Virus record (IMG/VR): IMGVR_UViG_3300047322_000568
Location: 1 to 25,379 of that record
Reading direction: 5' to 3' (one strand)
Length of the DNA: 25,379 nucleotides
DNA from: a virus
The position numbers and the translations under genes were made by a program. Of the stretch, positions 260 through 24,409 are shown in pieces. Within the stretch, counting starts at the first letter, position 1, and every line of letters begins with the position of its first letter. Under the pieces are notes generated by a model, which saw only the letters and a list, made by a program, of their open reading frames with translations, was not told where the DNA came from and searched no databases.

Positions 260-679
260 TTAGATCAGATCCGCGTCAGCAGCTTGAGTACCGGCAGCGG
301 GAGCATCAGCAGGAGCATCAGCAGGAGCATCAGCAGGAGCATCAGCAGGAGCATCAGCAGGAGCATCAGCAGGAGCATCAGCAGCCGGAGCATCAGCAGC
401 CGGAGCGCCCGCGCCGGTCTGGTCAAGTGCGGCTTGGTCGGCCAATGCTTGGTCAGCAGCGGCTTGATCCAGCGCCTCTTGGTCCCGGCCTACGCTGTAC
501 GAGTCCGCGTCAGAGTAGCCTTCCTCGCCCTTGGCGTACCGTGCTGCGCCGTGGACCAGCACGAACAGTTCCGTTTCGAGTTTGGTCGCAACGAAGGAGG
601 CACCCGCAGCGATAACCTCAATCGTATTCGCCAGTTTACCCGGCCGGTGGATGGTGTTGATCGCAATCAATTTAGGCAT
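260..679 (-). CDS. Small head-module protein with ADAP tandem repeats and ADLI tail
   Basis: This encodes 139 residues starting MPKLIAINTIH. The ATG at 679 is preceded by GGGAG six bases upstream; an in-frame ATG at 700 lacks such a site. Residues 1-50 form a compact hydrophobic domain (PGKLANTIEVIAAGASFVAT), similar in style to small phage proteins that follow the capsid gene. A low-complexity Ala/Asp/Gln region follows, then seven or more copies of ADAP encoded by a 12-bp tandem repeat, and the chain ends in ADADLI. The position after the major capsid gene matches lambda FI, an Ala-rich packaging accessory protein, but I see no sequence proof of that role. The final ADLI resembles the (D)DLI tail of six other proteins in this window. 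Confidence 0.8.
   Translation of the reverse strand: MPKLIAINTIHRPGKLANTIEVIAAGASFVATKLETELFVLVHGAARYAKGEEGYSDADSYSVGRDQEALDQAAADQALADQAALDQTGAGAPAADAPAADAPADAPADAPADAPADAPADAPADAPAAGTQAADADLI
301..402 (-). repeat. 12-bp tandem repeat array encoding ADAP
   Basis: Seven perfect copies of GAGCATCAGCAG occupy 301-384. Two 15-bp variants follow, each consisting of CCG plus the same unit (the last diverges into GAGCGCCCG). The 12-bp period preserves the reading frame of the host gene and encodes repeated Ala-Asp-Ala-Pro on the minus strand. Perfect copies suggest recent expansion by slippage, so copy number may vary between isolates. Confidence 0.95.
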
Positions 680-698
680 TTTCAACTCCCAGTGGAAC
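680..698. promoter_or_regulatory. Weak operator-like palindrome before the ADAP gene
   Basis: TTTCAAC-TCCCA-GTGGAAC matches 11 of 14 half-site positions of the recurring ATTCAAC-N5-GTTGAAT palindrome. It abuts the ATG at 679 and covers the ribosome binding site, so if bound it would affect translation or transcript passage rather than a -35 box. The match may be fortuitous. Confidence 0.3.
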
Positions 699-733
699 AA
701 CAGGGCAGCCTAAGCCGCCCTGCCGGTCCAGCT

Positions 734-5533: not shown

Positions 5534-7639
5534 TTAGCTTAGTAGCGCGCCGATAGCCTCGATGTCCAAGTCTTCAACATCGTCGGAATCGGTGGCTGAA
5601 GCGTTCGAAGGATCGAACACCAAGTCGTTTTTATACCAATCTGCGTAACAGCCCTCCGGGTCGTCCCAGTCGAGCATGTCCCCGCGCATGCTATGCAGGA
5701 TCGCCATCGCGTAAACCAGCAGGTCCCACGCTTCGTTCCGTGCCTGCGTCTTACGCCAGCCATCCGTGTCCCGGACTTCCGCGACCATTTCGTTCCAGAA
5801 CCACGCGGGTAACCAGCTGGGGAAATTCACCTTGCCGCCGCCTGGGACTTTCCGGTCGAGCATCACGTTGAGCGTGTCCTTCAGCGCGTTGGCGTTCAGC
5901 AGCAGGACGGGGATCTCGCCGCGTGCATCCGCGTGCCGGTCTTTACGTGAGCTGTCCGGCCAAGTCGTCAGCGTCGTGGGCGCCCTCTTGTTCGGGTTGC
6001 CCTTCAGCAGCTTGAAACGGCGGTGCAGATCCGCAGGTATCTCCGTACCGTCTGAGTCGCGCAGCCGGCGATAGAAGTTGTAGGCATTCTTGGTCACTGA
6101 GCTGTCGTTCTTCAGATCCGCTGAACCTGCGGAGTCGCAGCCTGTCATCTTGATCTTCATGCGCCGACCGGAGCCATCGCCGAGCGGGTACGTCCGCAGG
6201 ATCGCCTTCTCGATCAGCACGTCCCAGTCTTCCAGGTACGACGCGGGCGAGATCATGTCCTTCTCGCCTTCCTCGTCGAGGCGATTCGAACGGCGAATAG
6301 CGAAACGGTCGATGACAGTCAGGTCACCGCCGACGCCGACGCCGACGACCTGGATCTCGAACCGGTGCAGCTGTACGTCGACCAAGGCCAGCAGGAAGCG
6401 GACGCCCTTCGGCACCACTCGCTCGCCGAGGTCCTGAGCCATTGCCTTGACGTCTTCCGCCAAGCGTCCGGCGTCCAGCCCTACTGGCATGAAGGGCTCA
6501 CCCTGGTCTGTGTTGACCGTGGTCTTGAGCGATTCCTGGCTGCCCGTGCGCTCAAACTCTTCCATCGCCTTGAGGTACTTCAACGCCAAGTCGCGCCAGT
6601 CGGTGAACAGTGCTGCCGGCCCCTTCATCCAGAAGCTGGCGATGTTGGACCTGAACGCGGTTCCCTCGAGCGAGCCGTCCGGCATCCACTTCTGGCCATC
6701 CATGACCCACCGGGCGTTGCCCAGCTTGATCTGGTTCAGCTCGTGTTTACCTGGGACTCCGTTCAGACCGTCGTGCCATATGATCTGGCCGCAGCAGGGC
6801 ATCACCATGACGGTGGCCTCGGCCGCTTCGACGTGGTCCGCGCTATCCGGGATCTGCAATAGGCTGAAGCGGGGCTCGACGGCGGTCTTGCAGCCTGGGC
6901 ATTTCCAGTACCAGCGCCTACGGTCGCCCCGGTTGTACAGCGACAGGATGCCCCTGGTCGGCGGCGCTTCGTGCGGGGTCCGCGGGCTCCATTTCGGATC
7001 CTCGATCTCGAAGCCTGGCGACGATTCCGCCACGGTCATCGCGTTGCGGCGGTAGGTTGTCGTCCGTTTGGCCCCCAGGTCATACGGCGAACCTTCGCCA
7101 TCGATGGACTCCGGCATGCGGTCGTAGTCCGCGAGCCACACACGAGGGACCGTCTTACCGGACAGCTCCGTGATCGAGGGCCACTTGATCTCGAGGTTCA
7201 TCCCCGACAGGAAACGGACGTTGTGTGCGGCGTGGCCGGACCTGCCGGGAGTGACCAGCTTCCCGATGTCTTTGGAGTGGCGGAACATCCGCTTCAGGTC
7301 CTTGTTAGACCAGTCCCGGGCGGTGGCCTGCGACATGAAGACGCCCATCATATCGGCCGGGTCGCACTTGGACGTGTGCGCGATCCAGTTATGAAACATA
7401 TCGGACTTACCGGTTCGGGCTGGCCCTACGAAGATTTCGCCGATGTAGTCGGGGCTGGTCAGCACTTCCATCGGCTCGACCAGATACGGCGCCATTTCGT
7501 TGTTCCAGAAGCCCCGGTACGAACCGGGGTTATCCAGGTATCGGTACTTCTCCGCAGCCTCGGCCACGGTCAGCCGCTCAGGTGGCCGGATCCCCGTGGC
7601 GGATGCCGCGATCATTTCCTCAAGGGTTTCAAACCGCAT
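5534..7639 (-). CDS. Terminase large subunit (lambda gpA-like, Phage_GPA)
   Basis: This is a 701-residue protein close to lambda gpA in length (641). The N-terminal ATPase has a Walker A-like VGPARTGKSD (residues 71-80) and Walker B VWLADYD (167-173). A CPGC (247-250) and CCG (282-284) pair suggests a zinc-binding insertion, common in this family. The C-terminal nuclease contains LLALVDVQLHRFEIQVVG with Asp421 as probable metal ligand, and GCDSAGSAD downstream. The enzyme cuts the concatemer and drives packaging through the portal. It overlaps the small subunit gene by 11 bp, and the start at 7639 is the only ATG ahead of the conserved PPERLTVAEAAEKYRYL region. The C-terminus is acidic but ends GALLS, without the DDLI tail. 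Confidence 0.94.
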   Translation of the reverse strand: MRFETLEEMIAASATGIRPPERLTVAEAAEKYRYLDNPGSYRGFWNNEMAPYLVEPMEVLTSPDYIGEIFVGPARTGKSDMFHNWIAHTSKCDPADMMGVFMSQATARDWSNKDLKRMFRHSKDIGKLVTPGRSGHAAHNVRFLSGMNLEIKWPSITELSGKTVPRVWLADYDRMPESIDGEGSPYDLGAKRTTTYRRNAMTVAESSPGFEIEDPKWSPRTPHEAPPTRGILSLYNRGDRRRWYWKCPGCKTAVEPRFSLLQIPDSADHVEAAEATVMVMPCCGQIIWHDGLNGVPGKHELNQIKLGNARWVMDGQKWMPDGSLEGTAFRSNIASFWMKGPAALFTDWRDLALKYLKAMEEFERTGSQESLKTTVNTDQGEPFMPVGLDAGRLAEDVKAMAQDLGERVVPKGVRFLLALVDVQLHRFEIQVVGVGVGGDLTVIDRFAIRRSNRLDEEGEKDMISPASYLEDWDVLIEKAILRTYPLGDGSGRRMKIKMTGCDSAGSADLKNDSSVTKNAYNFYRRLRDSDGTEIPADLHRRFKLLKGNPNKRAPTTLTTWPDSSRKDRHADARGEIPVLLLNANALKDTLNVMLDRKVPGGGKVNFPSWLPAWFWNEMVAEVRDTDGWRKTQARNEAWDLLVYAMAILHSMRGDMLDWDDPEGCYADWYKNDLVFDPSNASATDSDDVEDLDIEAIGALLS

Positions 7640-8282
7640 CAGACTCGACCTCTTCCTCTAGCGGCTCGACCGTCGAGGATGATGTCTGGCTGCGTTTCGG
7701 GGCTTCGATCATCAGCTGGTACACGCTGTCCAGCAGCTTGTCCGTTAACTGACCGATCAAAGCGCGCTGCTCGGCGGTCAGGCCGGTGGCGCGGTCGACT
7801 TCCTCAACCCAGAGGGAGGCTGTCGTTTTGAAGGAAAATGCCAGGTCGCCAAACACCGCGAGCACGTCATCCGTGCGCCATAAATCGCCCGCGTTCTCGG
7901 CCCATTTCTGATGCTTGAGCTTACCGTCCCAGAACGCGGCCTGAAGCATCGGCGGTAGATCGTTTGGTCGGAGACGCTGCATGTAGGCCTCGATGTCGAC
8001 CTTCGGCGGCACCAGAAACGCGGCGGCGTCCTTCAGCCGATACAGCGGGCTGCCCTTGCTCCGACCGATGACTTCACAGCCGCCTTCGGCCAGCTTCTTT
8101 TTGACCACGGCGCGGTCGCCACCGAAAACCTGATGCAACCAATGGGAGCTGACGCCGGCCCAGACATCCGCGATGTCCATGTTGACGGGCTCGTCTTTTT
8201 CCTCGGTGGTACCAATCAGATCGTCATCATCGGGGGCTTGCGGCGCCTTCCGGGATCCGGGTTTCTTTGACTGAGGGGCCAT
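7629..8282 (-). CDS. Terminase small subunit (DUF1441 / Nu1-like)
   Basis: This encodes 217 residues from the ATG at 8282, which has AGGTGA five bases upstream; a TTG nine codons further out lacks a comparable site. An N-terminal basic and acidic tail contains DDDDLIG at residues 18-24. It is followed by a winged-helix-like DNA-binding region (DVWAGVSSHWLHQVFGGDRA) and GSPLYRLKDAAAFLV, which resembles the Nu1/DUF1441 pattern of a DNA-recognition helix followed by a short hydrophobic strand. The remainder is helical and is presumably used for oligomerisation and binding to the large subunit. The small subunit recognises the packaging site. The assignment rests on the family-like N-terminus and on direct overlap with the large subunit gene. 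The DDDDLIG motif is shared with the primase linker. Confidence 0.8.
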   Translation of the reverse strand: MAPQSKKPGSRKAPQAPDDDDLIGTTEEKDEPVNMDIADVWAGVSSHWLHQVFGGDRAVVKKKLAEGGCEVIGRSKGSPLYRLKDAAAFLVPPKVDIEAYMQRLRPNDLPPMLQAAFWDGKLKHQKWAENAGDLWRTDDVLAVFGDLAFSFKTTASLWVEEVDRATGLTAEQRALIGQLTDKLLDSVYQLMIEAPKRSQTSSSTVEPLEEEVESDAV

Positions 8283-8332
8283 GTCGTCACCTACGCCTGT
8301 TTGGGGCAATCATGCCCCAGCGTAGGTTGCTA

Positions 8333-8369: not shown

Positions 8370-8648
8370 CTATACAAGCGGGTCTAGGTTGGCTATGAAC
8401 AGCAGTACATCCGCGTGGCACGACTTCGGCGCGCAAGAGCAAACGAGGTTCTTACCCCGAAGCTCCCGCTGGATGTGTCGGACTATCCCCGGCTGCTGCC
8501 AGATCCAAGCTCTATGCTCGGCGATGGCCTGCTCCCTGGTGCGACCTGGCTCTATCCGAAACCGGTTACCCCACTCGCTCGGGCGACCGACGTAGACCGC
8601 ATCGAGCGGGACACCATCGCGGTGTTTGTTCAGCACTCGAGGGTTCAC
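8370..8648 (-). CDS. DUF4326 domain protein
   Basis: The GTG start at 8648 forms a GTGA overlap with the stop of the upstream gene, giving 92 residues. The alternative ATG at 8693 would overlap that gene by 49 bp without a good ribosome binding site. The sequence matches DUF4326: NPRVLNKHRDGVP, then AVYVGRPSEWGNRFRI, then a helix, and at the end ELRGKNLVCSCAPKSCHADV. The Cys-x-Cys...Cys-His cluster near the C-terminus looks like a metal- or active-site element. The function of the family is unknown to me. It is the last gene of the methyltransferase operon and is probably translated by coupling to the SLOG-like gene. Confidence 0.85.
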   Translation of the reverse strand: MNPRVLNKHRDGVPLDAVYVGRPSEWGNRFRIEPGRTREQAIAEHRAWIWQQPGIVRHIQRELRGKNLVCSCAPKSCHADVLLFIANLDPLV

Positions 8649-9139
8649 ACCAGAAGGTCCAGATGGAGATTGCCGAACCGCCACCGGTTCCATAAGTTGT
8701 CGATCTCGACCTTACGCTTCTTGGCATACCGTATGCAGTTGCCAGTACCGCCAGAGCTGCCGTCCCAAAGCGCGGCGATCAGGTCTGCTCGGTCAACCAT
8801 CCAGCGGTTGCGCATTTCCATGGCCGTGCTCGAGTAACCGCCATGGGAGACCACAACGACCTCCGTGGCCTTCGCCAGGATCTCCCGGTACCGCTGCTGA
8901 AGGTCGGCTGGCCAGCGAGATTCCTGACCCTCGAAGGGAATAGCTGCGGTGAACGGGACACCCAGGACGTAGGCTGCCGCAGCCCAAGCCGTATCCCAGC
9001 CCAACGCCATCCCGGATATTATGCGCTCGGGCTCAACCTCATTCAGGTACGCCACGGCCAGACCGATCAGCCTTCCGTCGAGACGGTAGCTATGCCCACC
9101 GAGCTTCTCCGGACGGTGACCCGTGGCCGCGACGATCAT
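8645..9139 (-). CDS. SLOG / YpsA-like Rossmann-fold protein
   Basis: The 164-residue product opens [15 protein letters not shown], the signature of the YpsA/DUF1273 branch of the SLOG (DprA/LOG-related) superfamily. Other family marks are ISGMALGWDTAWAAAA, a nucleotide-binding-like GMALGWD turn, VPFTAAIPFEGQESRWP, and the C-terminal DLIAALWDGSSGGTGNCI, whose GGT loop usually contacts a phosphate. SLOG domains bind nucleotides or nucleotide-derived ligands. Whether this one senses, hydrolyses or sequesters a ligand cannot be read from the sequence. The ATG overlaps the stop of the methyltransferase gene (ATGA) and its own stop overlaps the DUF4326 start (GTGA), so the three form a tightly coupled operon. 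Confidence 0.87.
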   Translation of the reverse strand: MIVAATGHRPEKLGGHSYRLDGRLIGLAVAYLNEVEPERIISGMALGWDTAWAAAAYVLGVPFTAAIPFEGQESRWPADLQQRYREILAKATEVVVVSHGGYSSTAMEMRNRWMVDRADLIAALWDGSSGGTGNCIRYAKKRKVEIDNLWNRWRFGNLHLDLLV

Positions 9140-10440
9140 ATCAGGTCATCCGCACAGGTCAGATTAGATCGTCCGCACAGGTCTTTTTCGAGGAACGCTT
9201 CGACGAAGATCGTGGCTTGCTCCGCGTTGATCGCGTTTCCATAGGCGCGCAGTCGCACCACTCGGGAGGGAGCCCCATGAGCCAGCGGGAGTGTGCCGGG
9301 TTCAACTGGCCGCCACTTTCCATCCTGGCAGAAGAGCCAGTCAACAGTTCCCCAGAAGCGGTCAGCCTCGCTGCGCCGTCCGAAGTGACCCAGCCCGTCA
9401 GCCCCGCTGCTCCCCATAGCCAGCAGGGTTTCTGACTCGGCCCCCCGTGCGGGCCGTCCGAGGCGTTCGGCGTCGGCCAGCCCGAGAGCTGGACTGTGTC
9501 GTTCAGGTTCGACATCCCGTGCCCCTGAGCTTTCTTGGCCGCGATGTACTCCGGCCTGTGCGCGGGGAAGTGATCTCGCGCCACTGGCGTCGGCCAACCT
9601 GACAGCACCGCCGCATGGTTCAGCGTGATGTTCCTGGTCTCGAAGTCCTGCGACGGGAACCGCAACGAATCCGACGAGGTCGTCGTTGGCCAGCCGGCAT
9701 AGAGCATCGTCTGCTCTTCCAGATTGCCCGGGGCCAACGATGATCGACCGATTGACTCCCTGAATGCTCGACGCTTCTCCGTGGCTTCCTCGTCCCGGGT
9801 GCCTCGGCTGCTGCAAGTCGGCGTCTGCCACCCAGCCAGTTGCGCGCAGACGTCCAGCCTGTCCGTGCTCAATTTGCCATTGCGTATCCGGCCTCCGATG
9901 TAGCCCCCTTTGTAGTCCGAGGCTGCGGGTGTCGGCCAACCGTTCCCCGACCCAGTAGAGTCGGTCGCGGATGTGCGGCGCACAGACGCTCGCAGCCGGG
10001 AACGGGACGGCCCCGAAGGCGTAGTCCAGGGCTTCCAAGTCAGCGTGTACAAGATCGACCCAAGGCTCGACAGTTTTACTCGCAACCTGCTCTCCAAAGA
10101 GGACTGGAGGTCGGTGCTGCTCAATGAGCCAGGCAAAATATGGCCAGAGGTGCCGCTTGTCAGCAAACCCTTCTGCTGGGCCTGCGCCGGAGAAAGGCTG
10201 GCATGGGCAACTTCCGGTCCATACAGGTCTGTCGTCAGCCCAACCAGCTCTTCGAAGAGCGTAAGACCAGACGCCGATGCCTGCAAAGAAATGGCATTGG
10301 GTGTACCCACGGAGGTCATCGGGAGAGACATCTAGAATGCTCCTTTCGTCGACATCACCTGGGGCGATATGCCCTGCGGCAATGAGGTTGCGGAGCCACT
10401 GCGCTGCCTGCTTATCAAACTCGTTGTAATAGGCTGCCAA
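9136..10440 (-). CDS. DNA (cytosine-5) methyltransferase with TCADDLI tail
   Basis: This is a 434-residue enzyme transferring a methyl group from AdoMet to C5 of cytosine. Visible motifs are motif [13 protein letters not shown] (FAGIG at 52-56), motif [14 protein letters not shown] with catalytic Cys80, motif VI as GEQVAS (116-121), motif [16 protein letters not shown] (154-164), and motif [17 protein letters not shown] near the end. Residues of roughly 170-370 form a variable region with repeated LAD-type units. The start is a TTG at 10440; it gives the N-terminus [16 protein letters not shown], which matches the family as I recall it, and AGGCGG lies upstream. The whole gene from codon 37 onward also encodes a second protein in the +1 frame. 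It ends in TCADDLI. A likely role is protection from host restriction. Confidence 0.92.
9138..9183 (-). repeat. 23-bp tandem duplication giving both overlapping frames the same C-terminus
   Basis: Read on the minus strand, units 9183-9161 and 9160-9138 both follow GACCTGTGCGGAYGAYCTR plus ATMT. They differ at four positions. Because 23 is not a multiple of three, the first unit encodes TCADDLI-stop in the nested frame and the second encodes TCADDLI-stop in the methyltransferase frame. All four differences are third-position synonymous changes in the frame that uses each unit. Confidence 0.93.
9159..10331 (-). CDS. Nested overprinted gene: GWPTP-repeat protein with TCADDLI tail
   Basis: A 390-codon frame lies wholly inside the methyltransferase gene, shifted by one base on the same strand. 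Its ATG at 10331 is preceded by AAAGGAG with eight bases between, a better site than that of the host gene. The protein starts [14 protein letters not shown], contains [20 protein letters not shown] and [19 protein letters not shown], and then five units of the GW(P/Q)T(P/T) type ([38 protein letters not shown] and two diverged ones). Near the end it has [18 protein letters not shown], and it ends CADDLI. From memory, proteins of this type are common in phage databases and often labelled methylase; I see no methylase motif in this frame. Function is unknown. The GWPTP units coincide with LAD units of the other frame. Confidence 0.78.
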
Positions 10441-16083: not shown

Positions 16084-16680
16084 TTAGATCAGATCGTCGC
16101 TGTCTTCGTCGTCGTCGAGATCGTCCAGGTAATCGTCCGCATCCACCGGAGCCGCACCGAACGCCTCGCCTTCCTTACGGTACCGGACCACCTCGATCGT
16201 GGCGAACAGACCGTTACCGCCCTGCTCTTTCTTGGTGACCGCGTAGAAGCTGACCACGGCGTCGACGTAGCAGCCGCCGTAGATCACGTTGTCTTCTTCA
16301 GTCAACGCAGATTTGTCGCGGTTGAGTACCTGCGGACGGCGCACGTTGGACGCCTTGACGATCATCATGCCCTCGTAGCCGGCGTAGACGTCGCCCTCGG
16401 CGTTGGTCACCTCGTCACCGCTGACGTAGGCCTTACGCTTGACCTCGATGTTGTCGTAGATCTTCTGGGCTTTATCTTTCCAGGTGTCGAGTTTGATCTT
16501 TTTGATCGCAGCCTCGATCTTCTTGATAACGGCCTTACCGTTATCCGTGTCGGGGTCGATGATGAACGAGGCGCCAAACTTCGGCTTGCTGTCGGGGGTG
16601 GACTGCTCAGCTTTCCAAACTTTCGGGAAGGATAGGCGAACACCGGTAAGGGTTACAACGTCTGGGCGTGCATCAGCCAT
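16084..16680 (-). CDS. ssDNA-binding protein, Enc34-type (DUF2815), with DDLI tail
   Basis: The 198-residue product matches the DUF2815/Enc34 ssDNA-binding family, functional analogues of T7 gp2.5 with an OB fold. Marks are VVTLTGVRLSFPKVWKAEQ, PKFGASFIIDPDT, YAGYEGMMIVKASNVRRPQV, YGGCYVDAVVSFYAV and GLFATIEVVRYRKEGEAFG. The last 25 residues are strongly acidic and end EDSDDLI. Acidic tails in this class recruit partner proteins and compete with DNA for the binding groove. AAGGA precedes the ATG. The gene follows the DUF2800 nuclease gene by 12 bp, the usual order, and is followed by a strong terminator. Its tail motif is shared with six other proteins here. Confidence 0.9.
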   Translation of the reverse strand: MADARPDVVTLTGVRLSFPKVWKAEQSTPDSKPKFGASFIIDPDTDNGKAVIKKIEAAIKKIKLDTWKDKAQKIYDNIEVKRKAYVSGDEVTNAEGDVYAGYEGMMIVKASNVRRPQVLNRDKSALTEEDNVIYGGCYVDAVVSFYAVTKKEQGGNGLFATIEVVRYRKEGEAFGAAPVDADDYLDDLDDDEDSDDLI

Positions 16681-16692
16681 TTTCGTATTCCT

Positions 16693-17946
16693 TTAAATGA
16701 GATCGTCGAGTTCAGGCTGAAGCGTCCGCCCGAGCAGGTCATCGTCGTTGTCGTCGAGGTCCAGGTCTTCCAGCAGGTTGACCAGGGGTATCAGTGCATC
16801 ACGCTTGTCCGATACCGGGACCAATGCTGGTCGGCCGTCAGGACGGTGGATCAGGTGTTCTGCTTTTTTCCAGTTGCGGGTGCCAGCGATGATTTCCAGT
16901 TGTGCAGGGCTCTTCATGTTTCGGGTGTACAGATCCTTGTCGGGGATCTTGCCGCGCCAGTAGGCCTCGGCTTCAGCTTCGTCAGTCCAAGTACGGTCGC
17001 CGAGGGTGGCAACAGCTTTGAAGCCCGGGGTCTCGCCGCCGCGCAGTGCTTCGTCGAGCTGGGTACCGCTGAGGTTACTCAGCCAGGACGAGATCAGCTG
17101 CTTGTGCATCAGCACGTAACTTCGGCGCTCCGGCGTCATTTCGTCGATGTCGGCCAATTTCGGGTCCCTCTTTCTCAGGGTCGTCAGATCGGTGAATTCC
17201 AGACCGAGCAGGTCCAGCACAAAGGCGTTTAACTTGCGGCAGCCCGAGTTGCGCGCTGCTCGGCAGAACTGGCAGCCCTTCACAGTTGGGTGCATGTAAT
17301 CGAGCAGGTCCGCTTCATCAGCGGCGTCGGCTTCGGCAACCATTTCCACCGCAGCTTCGACTTCCTCGCCGAACTTCAGCATGTCCTCTAGGCTGACCCG
17401 CCACTCGCTGCCCCGACCGGCCACACGAGGTTGGTCGATCCGTAGGAGGAACTCCTTCGCGTTGGTTTTGCCCTGGGCGTAGTTTTTCCAGAAGCCCAGG
17501 CCGTAGATCATTTCCTGCTTGTTGCCTTCCGCGTCTACGGGTACACCTGCGCCGAACTTTAAGTCGTCTATGATGATTTCTTTGGGCGCGATGCCGCCTG
17601 CGTCCAAAGTCCCGAAGCCCCCGGGAATCCAGGGATCCATCGTTACGCGGTGTTCGAACACCCAGGTCGCCCGGGACTCGCGGATCCGGTCAATGCCTGG
17701 TTGCAGATGGCCGACCCAGTCCGGCGTCACTTCGAAGAAGAGGTCGTCTGCGGGTATCCACTCGCCGACCAGATCCTGAACATCGATACCTTCAGTCAGG
17801 CAGCGCTCCCTCACGGTGTGGGCCGCTGTGCCTTCCGATGAATAGATGCTTGTGACGTCGTCGAACCGGTCTTCCATCCGGGGTGCGGCGTAGCAGACCA
17901 TCCAGCGCTCTGCGCCCGAGGGGCTGAGCCTCGCATGCTCTGACAT
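16693..17946 (-). CDS. DUF2800 PD-(D/E)xK nuclease with Fe-S cysteines and DDLI tail
   Basis: The 417-residue product opens MSEHARLSPSGAERWMVC, the typical DUF2800 start with Cys18. The nuclease core contains TAAHTVRERC, then GGFGTLDAGGI (Asp115), and IIIDDLKFGAGVPV (Asp128, Lys130), a RecB/Cas4-like metal site. A second cysteine group, GCQFCRAARNSGCRKL (Cys225, 228, 236), together with Cys18 would ligate a 4Fe-4S cluster as in AddB and Cas4. It is probably an exonuclease that works with the ssDNA-binding protein in phage recombination. The tail has DNDDDLLGR and ends PELDDLI. GGAG lies nine bases before the ATG. It is followed 12 bp later by the ssDNA-binding gene. Confidence 0.9.
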   Translation of the reverse strand: MSEHARLSPSGAERWMVCYAAPRMEDRFDDVTSIYSSEGTAAHTVRERCLTEGIDVQDLVGEWIPADDLFFEVTPDWVGHLQPGIDRIRESRATWVFEHRVTMDPWIPGGFGTLDAGGIAPKEIIIDDLKFGAGVPVDAEGNKQEMIYGLGFWKNYAQGKTNAKEFLLRIDQPRVAGRGSEWRVSLEDMLKFGEEVEAAVEMVAEADAADEADLLDYMHPTVKGCQFCRAARNSGCRKLNAFVLDLLGLEFTDLTTLRKRDPKLADIDEMTPERRSYVLMHKQLISSWLSNLSGTQLDEALRGGETPGFKAVATLGDRTWTDEAEAEAYWRGKIPDKDLYTRNMKSPAQLEIIAGTRNWKKAEHLIHRPDGRPALVPVSDKRDALIPLVNLLEDLDLDDNDDDLLGRTLQPELDDLI

Positions 17947-18003: not shown

Positions 18004-18621
18004 TTAGATTTCTACTTCGTCTTCGTCGATCTCTTCGAACTCGGCGTCCTCGACGTCGAACTCATGACCGGCCATTTTGCGTTTGACGAGGTTGATCGCC
18101 AGGGCGTAGTGCTCTTCCGGCATGTCGGTAATTTTCGGGCCGCCGAAGCGAGCGATGATTTCCTTGGCGAAGGCGCGGCGTTCGTCGCGAACGTCACCCT
18201 CGAGGTCTTTCGGCAGGAAAGCGCCGAAGGCATTGGCCAGGTCTTCAACGGTTGGCTCGTCGCCGCCTTTAGCCTTCTCAGCTTCGGCCTTAGCCTTGGC
18301 GTCCTTCAGCTTTTTGTTGTAGCCAGTTTCGGTGGTCTTGGTCAGGTTCGGGTTTTTCTTCTTCAGCTTGTCGTACTCAGCCTGGCTGGCGACCTTGCCA
18401 ACAGTGCCGGCCTTGTTGTCCGCCCAGAAGATAGTCCCCTCTTCCTGCTCTTCTTCCTTCTGTGTCTTGCCTGGGCCGGTCTTATCGGCAGGCGCGACAG
18501 CCTTCTCGGTTTTGCCAGCAGGAGCTACGACATTCACTGTGCCGCCGCCAGCTGTGCGGATCGCTTCGGCTAGTACCAGAAGGGCCGCCGTGTGGTCATT
18601 GATGGCTTGTTCCAAACTCAT
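18004..18621 (-). CDS. Unknown early protein, first gene of the replication operon
   Basis: This encodes 205 residues from the ATG at 18621, which has GGAG seven bases upstream. A longer frame back to 18762 would cross the operator region and is not supported. The N-terminus MSLEQAINDHTAALLVLAEA is an amphipathic helix. The middle is an Ala/Pro/Lys-rich linker with a KEEEQEEG block. A KNPNLTKTTETGYNKKLKD segment and Lys/Ala-rich coiled-coil-like stretch come next. The C-terminal domain has DVRDERRAFAKEIIARFG and MPEEHYALAINLVKRKM, then an acidic end EIDEDEVEI. I do not recognise its function. Its place ahead of the DUF2800 and ssDNA-binding genes suggests a role in replication or recombination. 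Confidence 0.8.
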   Translation of the reverse strand: MSLEQAINDHTAALLVLAEAIRTAGGGTVNVVAPAGKTEKAVAPADKTGPGKTQKEEEQEEGTIFWADNKAGTVGKVASQAEYDKLKKKNPNLTKTTETGYNKKLKDAKAKAEAEKAKGGDEPTVEDLANAFGAFLPKDLEGDVRDERRAFAKEIIARFGGPKITDMPEEHYALAINLVKRKMAGHEFDVEDAEFEEIDEDEVEI

Positions 18622-18704
18622 TGGTGTTCTCCGGTCTTTTAGTAAATTCAGGTAGAAGGCCGTTGCGCCTGCTGATTCGAATTGAAGCTCAGGCGCCCAG
18701 AACC

Positions 18705-18723
18705 TGTCAACTATTAGTTGAAA
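18705..18723. promoter_or_regulatory. Operator palindrome in the divergent early control region
   Basis: TGTCAAC-TATTA-GTTGAAA matches 11 of 14 half-site positions. It lies in the 209-bp gap between the leftward replication operon (ATG at 18621) and the rightward Cro-like gene (ATG at 18831). On the minus strand its TTGACA could act as a -35 box with TTCAAT 18 bp on. A further half-site GTTGAAT lies at 18736-18742. The position suits a repressor-controlled switch. Confidence 0.62.
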
Positions 18724-18769
18724 GTATTTGTCAAAGTTGAATTGATTTGCTGATCGTTGCAATAACGGC

Positions 18770-19400: not shown

Positions 19401-19630
19401 AAGAGTCGGCCCGCTACACCAAGCTCGCCCGAAAACTCCATGCCGCTGTGACCACTGAACAATTGAAGCTCGCCTGCGCGGGCTTTTTCCTCACCGGTAC
19501 ATCGCACCAGAACCTCCGCGAGGGGGTAGCCGCCACGGGTCTTATCCAGAGCCGATGGCTCGCTATCACTTCGACCGTGCTCAGCTACGACGCGGCAGAG
19601 TCAATCCTGCTTGGGGGTCAAGGACAATGA
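19397..19630 (+). CDS. Small unknown protein between HTH and primase genes
   Basis: This encodes 77 residues from the ATG at 19397, coupled to the preceding stop by an ATGA overlap, and it ends in an ATGA overlap with the primase gene. The sequence MKESARYTKLARKLHAAVTT, then KLACAGFFLTGTSHQNLREG and TGLIQSRWLAITSTVLSYDA, looks like a compact all-helical protein with a possible HTH. I do not recognise it. The two four-base overlaps make a real gene likely. Confidence 0.72.
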   Translation: MKESARYTKLARKLHAAVTTEQLKLACAGFFLTGTSHQNLREGVAATGLIQSRWLAITSTVLSYDAAESILLGGQGQ

Positions 19631-22488
19631 GCAGCAAGAAAATCACTTATGGGCGGACGACTGCTGCGGACCGCGGCACCATCGTCACCCACGAAGGGAC
19701 CTGGCCTGAGATCGCCGAGCTATTCCGTGAACCCTTGCGCCGGAAGATCACCCAAGAACAGTACGCGGGCATGTCGCCGAAAAACCGGGCGCATTCCAAG
19801 AACACAGGCCTGTTTTTCGGGGGCAAGTGCGATAACGGTCACCGAGGCGACAACACCCTGGTGTCCCGTTCGATGGTCAACCTCGACCTCGACGATCACT
19901 GCGCCGAAATCTGGGCTGACTACATGCTGCTGGGCACGATCCCTGCGCTGGACGGTCTGGCCTACCTAATTCACTCGACGCGCTCGAGCACATCCGAGAC
20001 GCCGAAGTTCCGGATCTGGCTGCCACTGTCCCGCGAGGTCTCACCGGCTGAGTACGAACCGGTTGCCCGGGGCATCGCAGAAATGCTGGACGCCTCGATG
20101 ATGGCCGTGGCCCGCGAGAGCTACACACCGGCTCAGGGGATGTACCTGCCGAGCGTCAGTTCCGACCAGGACTACTACTTCAGCGTTATCGAGGGCAGCT
20201 TCTTCAATCCCGACCGGACCCTGAACCGGTACCCGGCCGATGACGCCTCAACGTGGCCACGCAAGCCGAAGGAACAGGTAACCGAGTACGTCCCCGGTCG
20301 GAAGATGACCCATCCGGAGGACAAAAAGGCTCTCGCACCGATCATTGCCGCCGTCCACCGAGCGTTCGATCCGCACGATTTCATCACCGAGTTTCTGGGC
20401 GACGTCTACCTGCCGGCCGGGGACCGCTATTCCATCGTCAGTGCCAGCGGCGCCCCGAGCGTGCGGGTGTACGACGACGCCTTTATCCACTCTGACCACG
20501 GCTCCGATCCTGCCGTGGGCCAGCACAACACCTTCGACCTGGGCCGTATCCACCTGTTCGGCGACCTCGATGCCGACTTCGAAACCGACGCCATGTTCAT
20601 GACGGAATGGCCGTCGTACAAGGCAATGTCGGCGTTCATGCTCGAGCACGATGAAGTCCGTGAGGCCCTGGCCCAGATCGAGATCGAGATCGAGGAAGAA
20701 CGCAACGGCGGCATGCTCGATCTGCTGGCCGATCTGGACGATGAAGAACCCGAGCCCGACGAACCGGAGCCGGAAGAAGACGATGACGACGACGACCTGA
20801 TTGGCCGGATAAAACCAGCCAAGAAGAAAACGAAGACCATCGAGGACGTGCTGAAGAAGGTCAAGGCTTCGATAGCCAGGGCCAAGTCGCTGGACGACCT
20901 TGAGCGCCGTCTGGAGATCATCCGAGGCTTCCCGACTACCGATTTCCGTGACCTACACCGCGATCTGGTCGCACCGGACATCCAGCGCAAGTTCAAGGAG
21001 CTGACGGGCGAGTCGATCACCAAGGCCGTCGCCCGGAAAATGCTGGCGTCGACCATTGAGAACCTGCGCAAGCAGGTGGAAGGCCTCGACGTACCGGTTT
21101 GGCTGAATCCGTGGGTCTACATTTCCTCGACCAACACCTTCCTGAATCTGGACACCAAGCAGGTGCTGCCGAAGGACGGCTTCAACGGCTTATACAGCGG
21201 CGAGGCCGGCGAGGAACACGGCACCAACAATAACGGCACGCCGAAGGTGCTCCCTTCGGACCTGGCTCAGTCGGTCTACATGCTGCCCAAGCCGTACACG
21301 ATCAAGTTCCATCCGGACAAGCCGAGCTTGTTCGAGGACGACGGCGTCCTGTACGTCAACACCTACCGGGCAGCGCACCCTTCATCGGGCGGCTACAAGG
21401 GAAAGGCCGGCGTGAAGCTGCTTCTGCGGCTACTGGTCGACCTGTTCCCCGACGAGATCCACCAGCGCATGGTGCTGGACTTCATCGCTCACTGCGTTCG
21501 GTACCCCGGCAAGAAGCTGAAGTACGCCCTGCTGATCAAGGGCTGCGAGAACGAAGGCAAGTCGCTGTTCGCCGAGTTGATCAAGAAACTGCTGGGCACG
21601 CACAACTGCATGACCATCGGCAACGAGCAGCTGACTGAGAAGTTCAACGCCTGGGCCTTCGAGAAGCTGTTCTGCACCGTCGAGGAAATCAAGATCGTCG
21701 GGAAGGAAGCCTACGAGGTGCTGAACAAGCTCAAGCCGGTCATCACCAACCCCGAGATTCCTATTCGCCGGATGCGGACCGACGCCTCCCACGAGCTGAA
21801 CTTCTGCAACCTGTACATCACGACGAACTTCGAGGACTGCCTGCCGCTCGAGGACGACAACACCCGTTTCCTGGTGCTGTTCACCCGCTTCCTGGTCAAC
21901 GCCGAGGTCAAGGCCTGGCACGCCGAGCTGAAGAAGATCGAAGGCTCCGTCTACACGCGGGAGCTTTGGGACCACATTCAGGAGCGCCCCGCTCAGTTCC
22001 TCGAGTTCTTCGCGAAGTACGAATTCAGCGAGGCCTACGACCCGGATGGCGGTCGCGCACCGGACACCGTGTTCAAGCGGATCATGGCCGAGGATGGGAA
22101 AAACGAGGAACGGGTACTGCTCGACGACATGCTGGAGAGCGAGGAAAACCCGACCATCACGTCCGAGATATTCATCTGGGCGAATTTCCGGGCGATCCTC
22201 GATTCGAAGGATCTGGCGCCCAATCTGCGCAACCGCGCCGTGGGCAGTTTTTTGAAGCCGCTGGGTTTCATCAAAGCCAAACCGACGACAATTCGCGTCA
22301 ACGGGGACGTCAGAAAGACCCTGGTTTGGACCCGAAATTCGAGTCTGATCAACCGAAATGCCGAAAATGCACTCACTCAAGAGGGCCGCGACAAGGCAAA
22401 AGCAGCGATGGAAGCCGTCGAAGCGCTCGACGATGGCGAAGATTTGCGCAGCAACGTGATCCAGATGCAGAGGAAAAACCGGAAATAG
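19627..22488 (+). CDS. Primase-helicase: AEP-like N-terminus plus SF3/DUF5906 helicase
   Basis: This encodes 953 residues from the ATG at 19627 (ATGA overlap with the gene before; an earlier ATG at 19555 would lie within that gene). Residues 1-230 resemble an archaeo-eukaryotic-type primase domain: SMVNLDLDDH (Asp87 and Asp89 as the catalytic DxD) and TPKFRIWLPL. Residues 370-400 form an acidic linker with six Asp followed by LIGR. The C-terminal helicase (DUF5906/D5-like SF3) has Walker A KGCENEGKS (Lys645), Walker B CTVEEI (Glu686-687) and NLYITTNFEDCLPLEDDNTR as the sensor/arginine region. It should prime and unwind DNA at the phage origin. A terminator and a repeat-rich region with origin-like features follow at once. 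Confidence 0.9.
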   Translation: MSSKKITYGRTTAADRGTIVTHEGTWPEIAELFREPLRRKITQEQYAGMSPKNRAHSKNTGLFFGGKCDNGHRGDNTLVSRSMVNLDLDDHCAEIWADYMLLGTIPALDGLAYLIHSTRSSTSETPKFRIWLPLSREVSPAEYEPVARGIAEMLDASMMAVARESYTPAQGMYLPSVSSDQDYYFSVIEGSFFNPDRTLNRYPADDASTWPRKPKEQVTEYVPGRKMTHPEDKKALAPIIAAVHRAFDPHDFITEFLGDVYLPAGDRYSIVSASGAPSVRVYDDAFIHSDHGSDPAVGQHNTFDLGRIHLFGDLDADFETDAMFMTEWPSYKAMSAFMLEHDEVREALAQIEIEIEEERNGGMLDLLADLDDEEPEPDEPEPEEDDDDDDLIGRIKPAKKKTKTIEDVLKKVKASIARAKSLDDLERRLEIIRGFPTTDFRDLHRDLVAPDIQRKFKELTGESITKAVARKMLASTIENLRKQVEGLDVPVWLNPWVYISSTNTFLNLDTKQVLPKDGFNGLYSGEAGEEHGTNNNGTPKVLPSDLAQSVYMLPKPYTIKFHPDKPSLFEDDGVLYVNTYRAAHPSSGGYKGKAGVKLLLRLLVDLFPDEIHQRMVLDFIAHCVRYPGKKLKYALLIKGCENEGKSLFAELIKKLLGTHNCMTIGNEQLTEKFNAWAFEKLFCTVEEIKIVGKEAYEVLNKLKPVITNPEIPIRRMRTDASHELNFCNLYITTNFEDCLPLEDDNTRFLVLFTRFLVNAEVKAWHAELKKIEGSVYTRELWDHIQERPAQFLEFFAKYEFSEAYDPDGGRAPDTVFKRIMAEDGKNEERVLLDDMLESEENPTITSEIFIWANFRAILDSKDLAPNLRNRAVGSFLKPLGFIKAKPTTIRVNGDVRKTLVWTRNSSLINRNAENALTQEGRDKAKAAMEAVEALDDGEDLRSNVIQMQRKNRK

Positions 22489-23595: not shown

Positions 23596-23853
23596 ATGGC
23601 CAGCAGACACAGCGATGTAATCGTGGGTATGTCCACCGTTCCAAAGCACGAAAGCGGTGGTTGGGCTCTCCCTGGTGGCGGGATCACCCGCAGCCAGGCA
23701 GAGGCCGTCCGAGTCGCAACCGTTATCGACGCACTGCTTCGGGCTCGAGCCGGGTCCGCGGCGACATCCTCCTGCGGGCGACTGATCCGGGCGCTGAGTT
23801 GCACACGCCGGATGGCCAACCCTGACGCAGCTCGGCACATCGTCTCCGTATGA
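23596..23853 (+). CDS. Small unknown protein, first gene of a rightward accessory operon
   Basis: This encodes 85 residues from the ATG at 23596, which has GGAGAAACACCA upstream. The N-terminal half (HSDVIVGMSTVPKHESGGWA, then LPGGGITRSQAEAVRVATVI) looks like a small conserved phage domain with a GGWALPGGG turn followed by a helix. The C-terminal half is Arg/Ala/Ser-rich and low in information. I do not recognise a function. Its stop overlaps the next ATG by four bases, which supports an operon with the zinc-finger-like genes. Confidence 0.65.
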   Translation: MASRHSDVIVGMSTVPKHESGGWALPGGGITRSQAEAVRVATVIDALLRARAGSAATSSCGRLIRALSCTRRMANPDAARHIVSV

Positions 23854-24095
23854 GCCTGCAAGTGTCCCACTGCCGCTGCCGCTGCCCGAGCTGCGGCCTG
23901 TTCTTCAACAGCATCGCCGGCTTCGACAAACACCGCATTCCGGACGAGTTGTTCGACGGCAGACGCTGCCGCAGCGAATCGGAAATGCTGGCAGCCGGCA
24001 TGGGTACCAACACGGCGGGCTACTGGGTCACCGCTTTGAGTGAGGGCGGCTTCTGGAAATCCGGTACCGCCGATTACCTGGACGACTTGATATGA
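23850..24095 (+). CDS. Zinc-finger-like protein with DDLI tail (copy 1)
   Basis: The 81-residue product has HCRCRCPSCGLFFNSIAGFD followed by KHR: a CPSC pair, a hydrophobic FF/F core and a His give a short zinc-finger-like element. It continues with GRRCRSESEMLAAGMG and YWVTALSEGGFW, and ends DYLDDLI. The Cys-x2-Cys...His...RRC(R/M)...EM layout is shared with the next gene, so they appear to be paralogues. The start forms an ATGA overlap with the upstream stop, and the stop overlaps the next start. It may bind nucleic acid or a protein; its function is not known to me. Confidence 0.8.
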   Translation: MSLQVSHCRCRCPSCGLFFNSIAGFDKHRIPDELFDGRRCRSESEMLAAGMGTNTAGYWVTALSEGGFWKSGTADYLDDLI

Positions 24096-24409
24096 ACCAC
24101 AAGTGCCCGACCAACAGCCAGTGGAAATGCCCAGCCGCCAGGGAGGCGCTCGCCCTCACCGAACGCGCCATAGCCAGCCAAGGTTTGTCTGCCGGGATGG
24201 AGTGCATCAGCTGCAAACAGAAATTTTTCAGCGTGATCGAGTGGCGGCGGCATCAGCTCACCGGCAAGCCCAGGTGCATGACTGCTGAGCAAATGCGTGA
24301 AGCCCGTTTGGCCAAAGCTGCATGGGGCTGGTGGGTAGACGTAAGTACCGGAATTGAAAATGCCGCGCTCGAGACCATCGAGACCAACGACAACGACGAC
24401 CTGATCTAG
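24092..24409 (+). CDS. Zinc-finger-like protein with DDLI tail (copy 2)
   Basis: This is a 105-residue protein. The N-terminus (MNHKCPTNSQWKCPAAREAL) adds a Cys-containing helix not present in the previous gene. The core MECISCKQKFFSVIEWRRHQ, then PRCMTAEQMREARLAKAAWG and WWV, follows the same plan as the preceding product: CxxC, FF, His, RC-M and a final WWV/YWV. It ends NDNDDLI. The start is translationally coupled (ATGA) to the previous gene. The two adjacent relatives probably arose by duplication and have since diverged strongly. Function unknown. Confidence 0.8.
   Translation: MNHKCPTNSQWKCPAAREALALTERAIASQGLSAGMECISCKQKFFSVIEWRRHQLTGKPRCMTAEQMREARLAKAAWGWWVDVSTGIENAALETIETNDNDDLI

Follow-up and report, generated by a model that had tools for sequence, protein, structure and literature searches.

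The window, our term for the whole 25,379-base stretch of DNA that was analyzed, is a virus record whose replication genes resemble those of Casjensviridae. It contains two ORFs with a shared 4 nt overlap that encode the predicted zinc-finger proteins Zn1 and Zn2, and translation of these ORFs confirmed that both proteins terminate in DDLI, as an initial annotation had stated. The features considered here are the following.

23850..24095, plus strand: Zn1, a predicted FDXHR-type zinc-finger protein of 81 aa; tail YLDDLI, DDLI codons at 24081-24092
24092..24409, plus strand: Zn2, a predicted diverged zinc-finger paralog of 105 aa; tail DNDDLI, DDLI codons at 24395-24406
16084..16680, minus strand: Enc34/T7-type ssDNA-binding protein (SSB; PF10991, phrog_112); tail DSDDLI
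16693..17946, minus strand: DUF2800 exonuclease (PF10926 at 217.9 bits, phrog_69); internal DDLLG and tail ELDDLI
7629..8309, minus strand: terminase small subunit (phrog_141); DDLIG near the N-terminus, DDLI starting at 8225
19555..22488, plus strand: primase/helicase (phrog_9765); DDLIG in a linker, DDLI starting at 20791
9136..10440, minus strand: C5-cytosine methyltransferase frame (PF00145, phrog_363); tail CADDLI
9159..10331, minus strand: ORF in another frame, almost fully overlapping the preceding one (phrog_1008 / phrog_31772); tail CADDLI
18004..18762, minus strand: conserved protein before the exonuclease; ends EDEVEI, outside the motif
260..700, minus strand: ORF for a low-complexity protein, located past the major capsid gene; ADADLI as a weaker form of the tail

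The initial annotation described Zn1 and Zn2 as diverged zinc-finger-like paralogs, and this reading holds: a single BLASTP comparison, with the tail included, aligned them with 21 identities in 73 columns (29%, E = 1e-5), and a Zn2 query retrieved the Zn1 ortholog in each of three further phage contigs (E 1.6e-5, 5.8e-5, and 6.2e-4), which supports paralogy. The finger elements it listed as shared are real, as seven positions (C12, C15, F19, H28, C40, G57, and W59 in Zn1 numbering) are invariant in an 11-sequence alignment that includes both window proteins. The CxxC, His, and Cys ligands of the FDXHR type (C12, C15, H28, and C40) are conserved in all 11 sequences, and we regard both proteins as putative zinc binders with an FDXHR-type CxxC...H...C finger. 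Against PF24071, the phage FDXHR zinc-binding domain (cut-off 27 bits), Zn1 scores just under the threshold (24.3 bits, E 2.9e-5), its orthologs in contigs G008 (29.7 bits) and G006 (28.0 bits) exceed it, and Zn2 gives no match. A scan of viral contigs with Zn2 returned no relative, though contig G001 encodes one at 86% identity, and the scan is thus no test of absence.

The AlphaFold (AF2) model of Zn1 has a mean pLDDT of 66.9, with residues 1-6 and 64-81 below 50 and the finger between them mostly at 70-90; it comprises a finger of two strands and one helix, followed by a short helix and strands. As modeled, Zn1 is a small domain bearing a free tail. A fold search with this model gave no match at E ≤ 0.001, all matches being weak (E 3.7 or worse); several of these are C2H2 fingers. 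Binding to DNA, RNA, or protein are all possible contributions of the pair, and the adaptor role that the initial annotation suggested for it, delivering something to the DDLI partner, is a hypothetical one.

The DDLI element across the window

Directly before a stop or glycine, DDLI occurs eight times in the six frames of the window, compared with 0.01 occurrences expected from codon-shuffled frames, an excess that rules out chance. Its carriers are Zn1, Zn2, the SSB, the DUF2800 exonuclease, the terminase small subunit, the primase, and both overlapping methyltransferase frames, and the DDLLG within the exonuclease constitutes a ninth copy. Because the eight DDLI copies use eight distinct codon spellings, the tail is in general not a DNA repeat. 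The SSB matches PF10991 at 104.4 bits (cut-off 26) and has an acidic C-terminal tail (LDDLDDDEDSDDLI), the two features by which we class it as Enc34 type.

The methyltransferase region provides the one local exception to a non-repeat origin: its two tails lie within an imperfect 23-bp tandem repeat with 19 of 23 bases alike (window 9130-9185), and each frame still has its own DDLI codons. Both overlapping ORFs match families labeled DNA methyltransferase (phrog_363 and PF00145 for one, phrog_1008 for the other). In phage YMC16, the same ORF pair ends DLDELI in both frames with different codons, and one frame has an additional EDLIG. Almost full overlap in two frames holds for the window pair and for the L012 ORFs 8381-9451 and 8454-9437, each ORF belonging to a family labeled methyltransferase and having a DDLI/DELI tail of its own. 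A tblastn search with the second frame hit 214 phage records, and in 83 the match spans at least 80% of the frame. The presence of tails in both frames of the window and of YMC16, in the latter with different codons, argues for translation of both, and the second ORF is likely a translated overlapping gene.

The 260..700 ORF ends in a weaker version of the tail; in Phobos and YMC16, genes that follow the capsid gene have the ends DGLI and DDLV, respectively. The window protein combines a series of DAPA repeats with its ADADLI end, and its longer counterpart in G001 has a different repeat followed by the end AADADLI. The conserved protein at 18004..18762 ends EDEVEI, and its relatives end DDLV, DGLI, DGLV, or DDVV. 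Family searches with this protein gave nothing above noise, and a fold search with its model (mean pLDDT 56.1) gave no match at E ≤ 0.001; the low-confidence model suggests small ordered parts downstream of a disordered N-terminus.

Form and distribution of the motif in related genomes

Seven named phage records (PspYZU01, Phobos, Ppu-503, YMC16/01/N133, and duplicates) match a 2.7-kb stretch of the window distantly, at about 70% identity over 18 to 32%. The 58.8-kb contig G001 is far closer, with an SSB 95%, an exonuclease 98%, a Zn1 99%, and a Zn2 86% identical to those of the window. We analyzed the motif in 17 genomes: the window; contigs G001, G002, G003, G005-G009, and G012; and Phobos, PspYZU01, YMC16, AchV4, Ruegeria phage V18, PS6, and PCA1. 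This set, from which G004 was left out, was largely chosen by SSB or exonuclease, and several of its members are partial. Its 895 proteins were called with a codon-usage caller, with the deposited annotation of Phobos and YMC16 compared alongside. The caller misses genes, and the methyltransferase ORFs and 260-700 of the window were taken from the six-frame list; genes across cuts between genome pieces are lost or shortened in the calls.

The motif takes the form acidic-[DE][DEG]-[LM]-[ILV], followed by Gly or the chain end. The expressions for it were drawn up after some of the genomes had been inspected, and the 17-genome and family counts are therefore partly post hoc; the 17-genome counts also include the near-duplicate pairs window/G001 and Phobos/PspYZU01. 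Among the 895 proteins, the C-terminal form occurs 70 times compared with 1.55 after local shuffling and none on reversal, again ruling out chance, and the internal form 50 times compared with 6.3 and 3, respectively. Across 14 genomes, [DE][DE]L[LIV] in an acidic context is followed by Gly in 34 of 75 cases and by the chain end in 32; in a plain context, either follows in 27 of 93. Just ahead of the acidic pair, 42 of 102 instances have Leu, Phe, or Ile and 47 have an acidic residue. With this frequent aliphatic or aromatic residue three positions ahead of the last Leu, the hydrophobic positions often follow an i, i+3, i+4 pattern, from which we infer that the motif is probably a short acidic amphipathic helix capped by Gly or by the C-terminus.

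The same element is found on the SSB, exonuclease, RdgC, primase, and terminase small subunit of related phages, including Phobos, PspYZU01, YMC16, Ruegeria phage V18, and several IMG/VR contigs. Counted by family, 14 of 17 exonucleases and 12 of 17 SSBs have it, as do 11 of 13 terminase small subunits, 10 of 11 primases, and 8 of 11 RdgC proteins. It is also present on 7 of 12 of the proteins that precede the exonuclease, on 3 of 8 members of a polymerase family, and on 2 of 12 portals and 2 of 16 SF2 helicases; on the primase it is mostly internal and is C-terminal only in G009 and YMC16. Of the 34 families present in at least six genomes, 24 never carry it; these include the capsid, protease, large terminase, and VRR nuclease families. 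Families tend to carry the motif together (p ≤ 0.0007; nine families in 15 genomes, with the window and PspYZU01 left out). The RdgC proteins without it belong to AchV4, PS6, and PCA1, where the families that can bear the motif do so in 1 of 7, 0 of 7, and 0 of 6 cases, respectively, counting those present in each genome; these three genomes and G005 have few copies or none. YMC16 has the highest number per genome, about ten unrelated carriers. In Ruegeria phage V18, the internal form, DDLLG, stands at the chain end of both the SSB and the exonuclease. In Phobos and PspYZU01, the exonuclease ends QQLI and has an internal copy of the motif. There are also gaps within the core group: the G003 SSB ends DDPI, the G012 exonuclease LFDD, and the window protein at 18004-18762 EVEI.

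Whether the tail follows the finger family or the genome was a question raised by the initial annotation, and comparison of the homologs answers it in favor of the genome. Zn orthologs in G001, G006, G007, and G008 have the tail, the G001 Zn2 with one copy more (DDLLG) than that of the window, as do related finger proteins in Phobos and in PspYZU01, where a single tail holds two or three copies of the motif. Zn1 orthologs match PF24071 and share its CxxC...H...C core; unlike the window Zn1, three other PF24071-type homologs, from Cutibacterium phages P14 and CAP 7-1 and Arthrobacter phage Persistence, lack the tail, which rules it out as a trait of the finger family. These are three of 121 matching records, all from actinobacterial phages, two of which (P14 and CAP 7-1) are relatives of each other. 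Tailed homologs in phages with no other DDLI protein, the result that the annotation had named as evidence against it, were not encountered in these three of the 121 records, whose three proteins are all tail-less, an outcome in favor of the annotation. By these comparisons, the DDLI tail goes with the genome and not with the zinc-finger family. The annotation had also read the retention of the tail in two strongly diverged paralogs as a sign of its importance; that the tail matters stands, and the pair is the weakest evidence for it, since the tail is spread far wider than two paralogs.

Lineage-specific variants of the tail

Searches with the exonuclease and SSB alignments gave viral contigs, with at least 80 loci per list, whose tails differ by lineage. 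Among the matches listed, lineage-specific tails include DLLG, DDLGI, DDDF, [DE]FW[GD], EGLV, DDVV, and others. In 77 contigs among these matches, 6.3% of 1,473 proteins have an acidic-hydrophobic-hydrophobic end, compared with 0.9% at a position 20 residues upstream.

Covariation between SSB and exonuclease tails was measured as motif-free tail similarity against shuffled pairings. Among the matches listed, the two tails covary at 90% redundancy (p ≤ 0.0002, n = 92) and at 70% (p ≤ 0.0002, n = 68), and more weakly at 50% (p ≤ 0.034, n = 30), with the related genomes not being independent of one another. A partial Mantel test regressed on core distances gave r = 0.215 for the same pair of tails (p ≤ 0.0005, n = 86 genomes among the matches listed). 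SSB and primase tails also covary among these matches (p ≤ 0.037, 0.009, and 0.040 at 90, 70, and 50% redundancy), the exonuclease-primase pairing is not significant at any of the three levels, and control pairings with polymerase, VRR nuclease, and SF2 helicase tails show no covariation.

One joint switch can be followed within a set of close relatives: SSB EALI accompanies exonuclease ADLI in L128 and L129, versus DVFN/DVFS with DMFS/DMFV in L130, L136, and L143. The L128 SSB is closer to the L136 SSB than to that of L129, yet its tail is of the L129 type. Between the SSBs of the two groups, only two gap-free positions follow the tail class, and both are in the tail. A single recombination event, with the end of the SSB gene as its site, could also account for this switch.

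A candidate docking motif and its receptor

We consider it very probable, from the sequence patterns above, that the DDLI tail is a genome-wide short linear docking motif for one common receptor. That the carriers lack homology, obey a strict local rule, and vary in concert is most simply read as use of a common docking site, and the suggestion of the initial annotation that the tail meets a partner common to the other DDLI proteins is still the best reading. The motif, displayed on a flexible tail or linker, would bind this receptor and so collect SSB, exonucleases, primase, methyltransferase, terminase small subunit, and zinc fingers at one place. The need for every carrier to fit this receptor would explain why each phage lineage retains a variant of its own. 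As for Zn1 and Zn2, they would join the assembly as small tethered modules that bind nucleic acid or protein.

Acidic phage SSB tails, hub motifs, and phage zinc-finger proteins are already known. The titles and abstract openings covered by our literature search, whose scope left out most subscription journals, contained no account of a tail shared across a phage genome. T7 is known to have two proteins with such acidic tails, gp2.5 (SSB) and gp4 (helicase-primase). The likeness lies in an SSB, from the same fold group, and one further replisome component both ending in an acidic tail; in the group studied here, the SSB has an acidic-hydrophobic tail, and the motif on 10 of 11 primases is mostly internal rather than C-terminal. 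Unlike T7, this group has up to about ten unrelated carriers, internal copies, the Gly/stop rule, and lineage variants. In the cited portions of the T7 literature, gp4 acidic tails bind basic patches of the polymerase, gp5 (PMC12593628, PMC8472574), and the gp2.5 tail is implicated in polymerase and primase-helicase contacts (PMC5686142).

The bacterial SSB-Ct (DDDIPF) resembles the tail in placing acidic residues before a hydrophobic tip. In that system one carrier protein has several binders, whereas here there are many carriers, the two tip residues are L-I, L-V, or L-L instead of P-F, and some copies are internal, before Gly; the terminal Pro-Phe was not found on these tails, which end in Leu-Ile and its variants. 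The SSB-Ct hexapeptide is described in its source's opening text as conserved and engaged in several essential interactions (PMC5872125). The closest relatives of the window SSB by family are the Enc34 ORF6/DUF2815 SSBs (PF10991), of which it is a member with an acidic tail; the Enc34 protein differs in ending with an acidic stretch and Val, judging from the translated cloning primer given in PMC5686142.

Four more specific alternatives were weighed. The receptor could be the OB-fold groove of the phage SSB, which would accept its own tail and those of the other carriers. An SSB is present in all 17 genomes, a set largely chosen by SSB or exonuclease, and its C-terminus contacts neighboring molecules in several crystals according to the structural passages of PMC5686142. 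We nevertheless regard this as unlikely, given that the SSB core is unchanged at the tail switch between L128/L129 and L130/L136/L143 and that the partial correlation of SSB core with tail type (0.003 and -0.088) amounts to none. More broadly, a receptor search by partial correlation of tail type with SSB, exonuclease, VRR, and SF2 helicase cores yielded no useful signal, its largest value (0.143) relating the exonuclease core to its own tail.

The host beta sliding clamp is a less likely receptor still. As a hub for a short motif, QL(S/D)LF, that many replication and repair proteins display in a loop or at the C-terminus (reviewed in PMC11139829), the clamp would serve phages with either polymerase type, and in Curvibacter phage PCA1 (L030) the exonuclease, primase, and VRR nuclease end DLFN, DLFG, and DLFT, near the last residues of the clamp motif. 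These three ends may themselves be a variant tag. The tails, however, have an acidic residue in place of the first Gln of that motif; the same parts of the review state both that Glu at this position greatly reduces affinity and that Gln is not strictly necessary (PMC11139829). Canonical motifs are not enriched either: Q-aliphatic-x-L-[FLI] ending within three residues of the C-terminus occurs in 0 of 895 proteins, and in whole proteins it is at the shuffled level (39 versus about 43). With a pocket as widely conserved as that of the clamp, one would not expect variants like DFWG or DDVV.

The phage DNA polymerase, for which the basic patches of gp5 that bind T7 helicase acidic tails set a precedent (PMC12593628, in the portion cited), is likewise a decidedly doubtful receptor here, although the polymerase is the receptor in T7. 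In its favor, full-length PolA proteins of the 17 genomes lack the motif and have ends such as RYRKD (eight of nine in the cluster). The related contigs G006 and G008, though, have the same tail types and polymerases of different PHROG families (phrog_1252 and phrog_17). Moreover, five short PolA-labeled proteins of 357-379 aa (G005, L163, L168, L175, and L181) end AEDLI, AEDLV, or AEDLL, and the G006-type polymerases of G003 and G012 end in the motif, so polymerases can be carriers. The tagged short proteins (L022:1647-2720 in G005, and those of L163, L168, L175, and L181) are perhaps split polymerases. A polymerase gene follows the SSB gene in G006 (L195:6-1877, phrog_1252), G007 (L197:1688-3688, a homolog), and G008 (L200:1867-4119, phrog_17).

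Finally, the tail could be a non-specific acidic DNA mimic that keeps DNA-binding proteins off their own DNA site, a role discussed for T7-type SSBs in passages of PMC5686142 that also describe acidic tails as general in phage SSBs, dsDNA binding upon truncation of the Enc34 tail, and C-termini lying in the sheet of a neighboring molecule in crystals of Enc34 ORF6, two DUF2815 proteins, and T7 gp2.5; this is very unlikely, because a mimic acting in cis needs neither a common hydrophobic pair, nor the Gly/stop rule (66 of 75), nor concerted variant change in unrelated proteins, and some copies are internal, placed in the linker of the primase and close to the N-terminus of the small terminase subunit.

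For the docking motif, the receptor candidates left are another phage protein or another host protein. Going further, and only tentatively, the tag may be a lineage-specific molecular address, borne by most DNA-acting proteins of a phage and also by the second-frame methyltransferase product, whose receptor coevolves with it and which defines a lineage's own replication and packaging machinery. If so, the tag would mark uncharacterized proteins, the zinc fingers included, as parts of that machinery. The shared tag offers a handle on function in that it nominates the zinc fingers, the protein before the exonuclease, and the overlapping methyltransferase ORF for one complex, and its change across non-homologous proteins offers a clean system for the joint evolution of motif and receptor. 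In several of the loci L159-L176, the exonuclease, VRR nuclease, or SF2 helicase ends FWG, FWD, or similar, a possible further variant.
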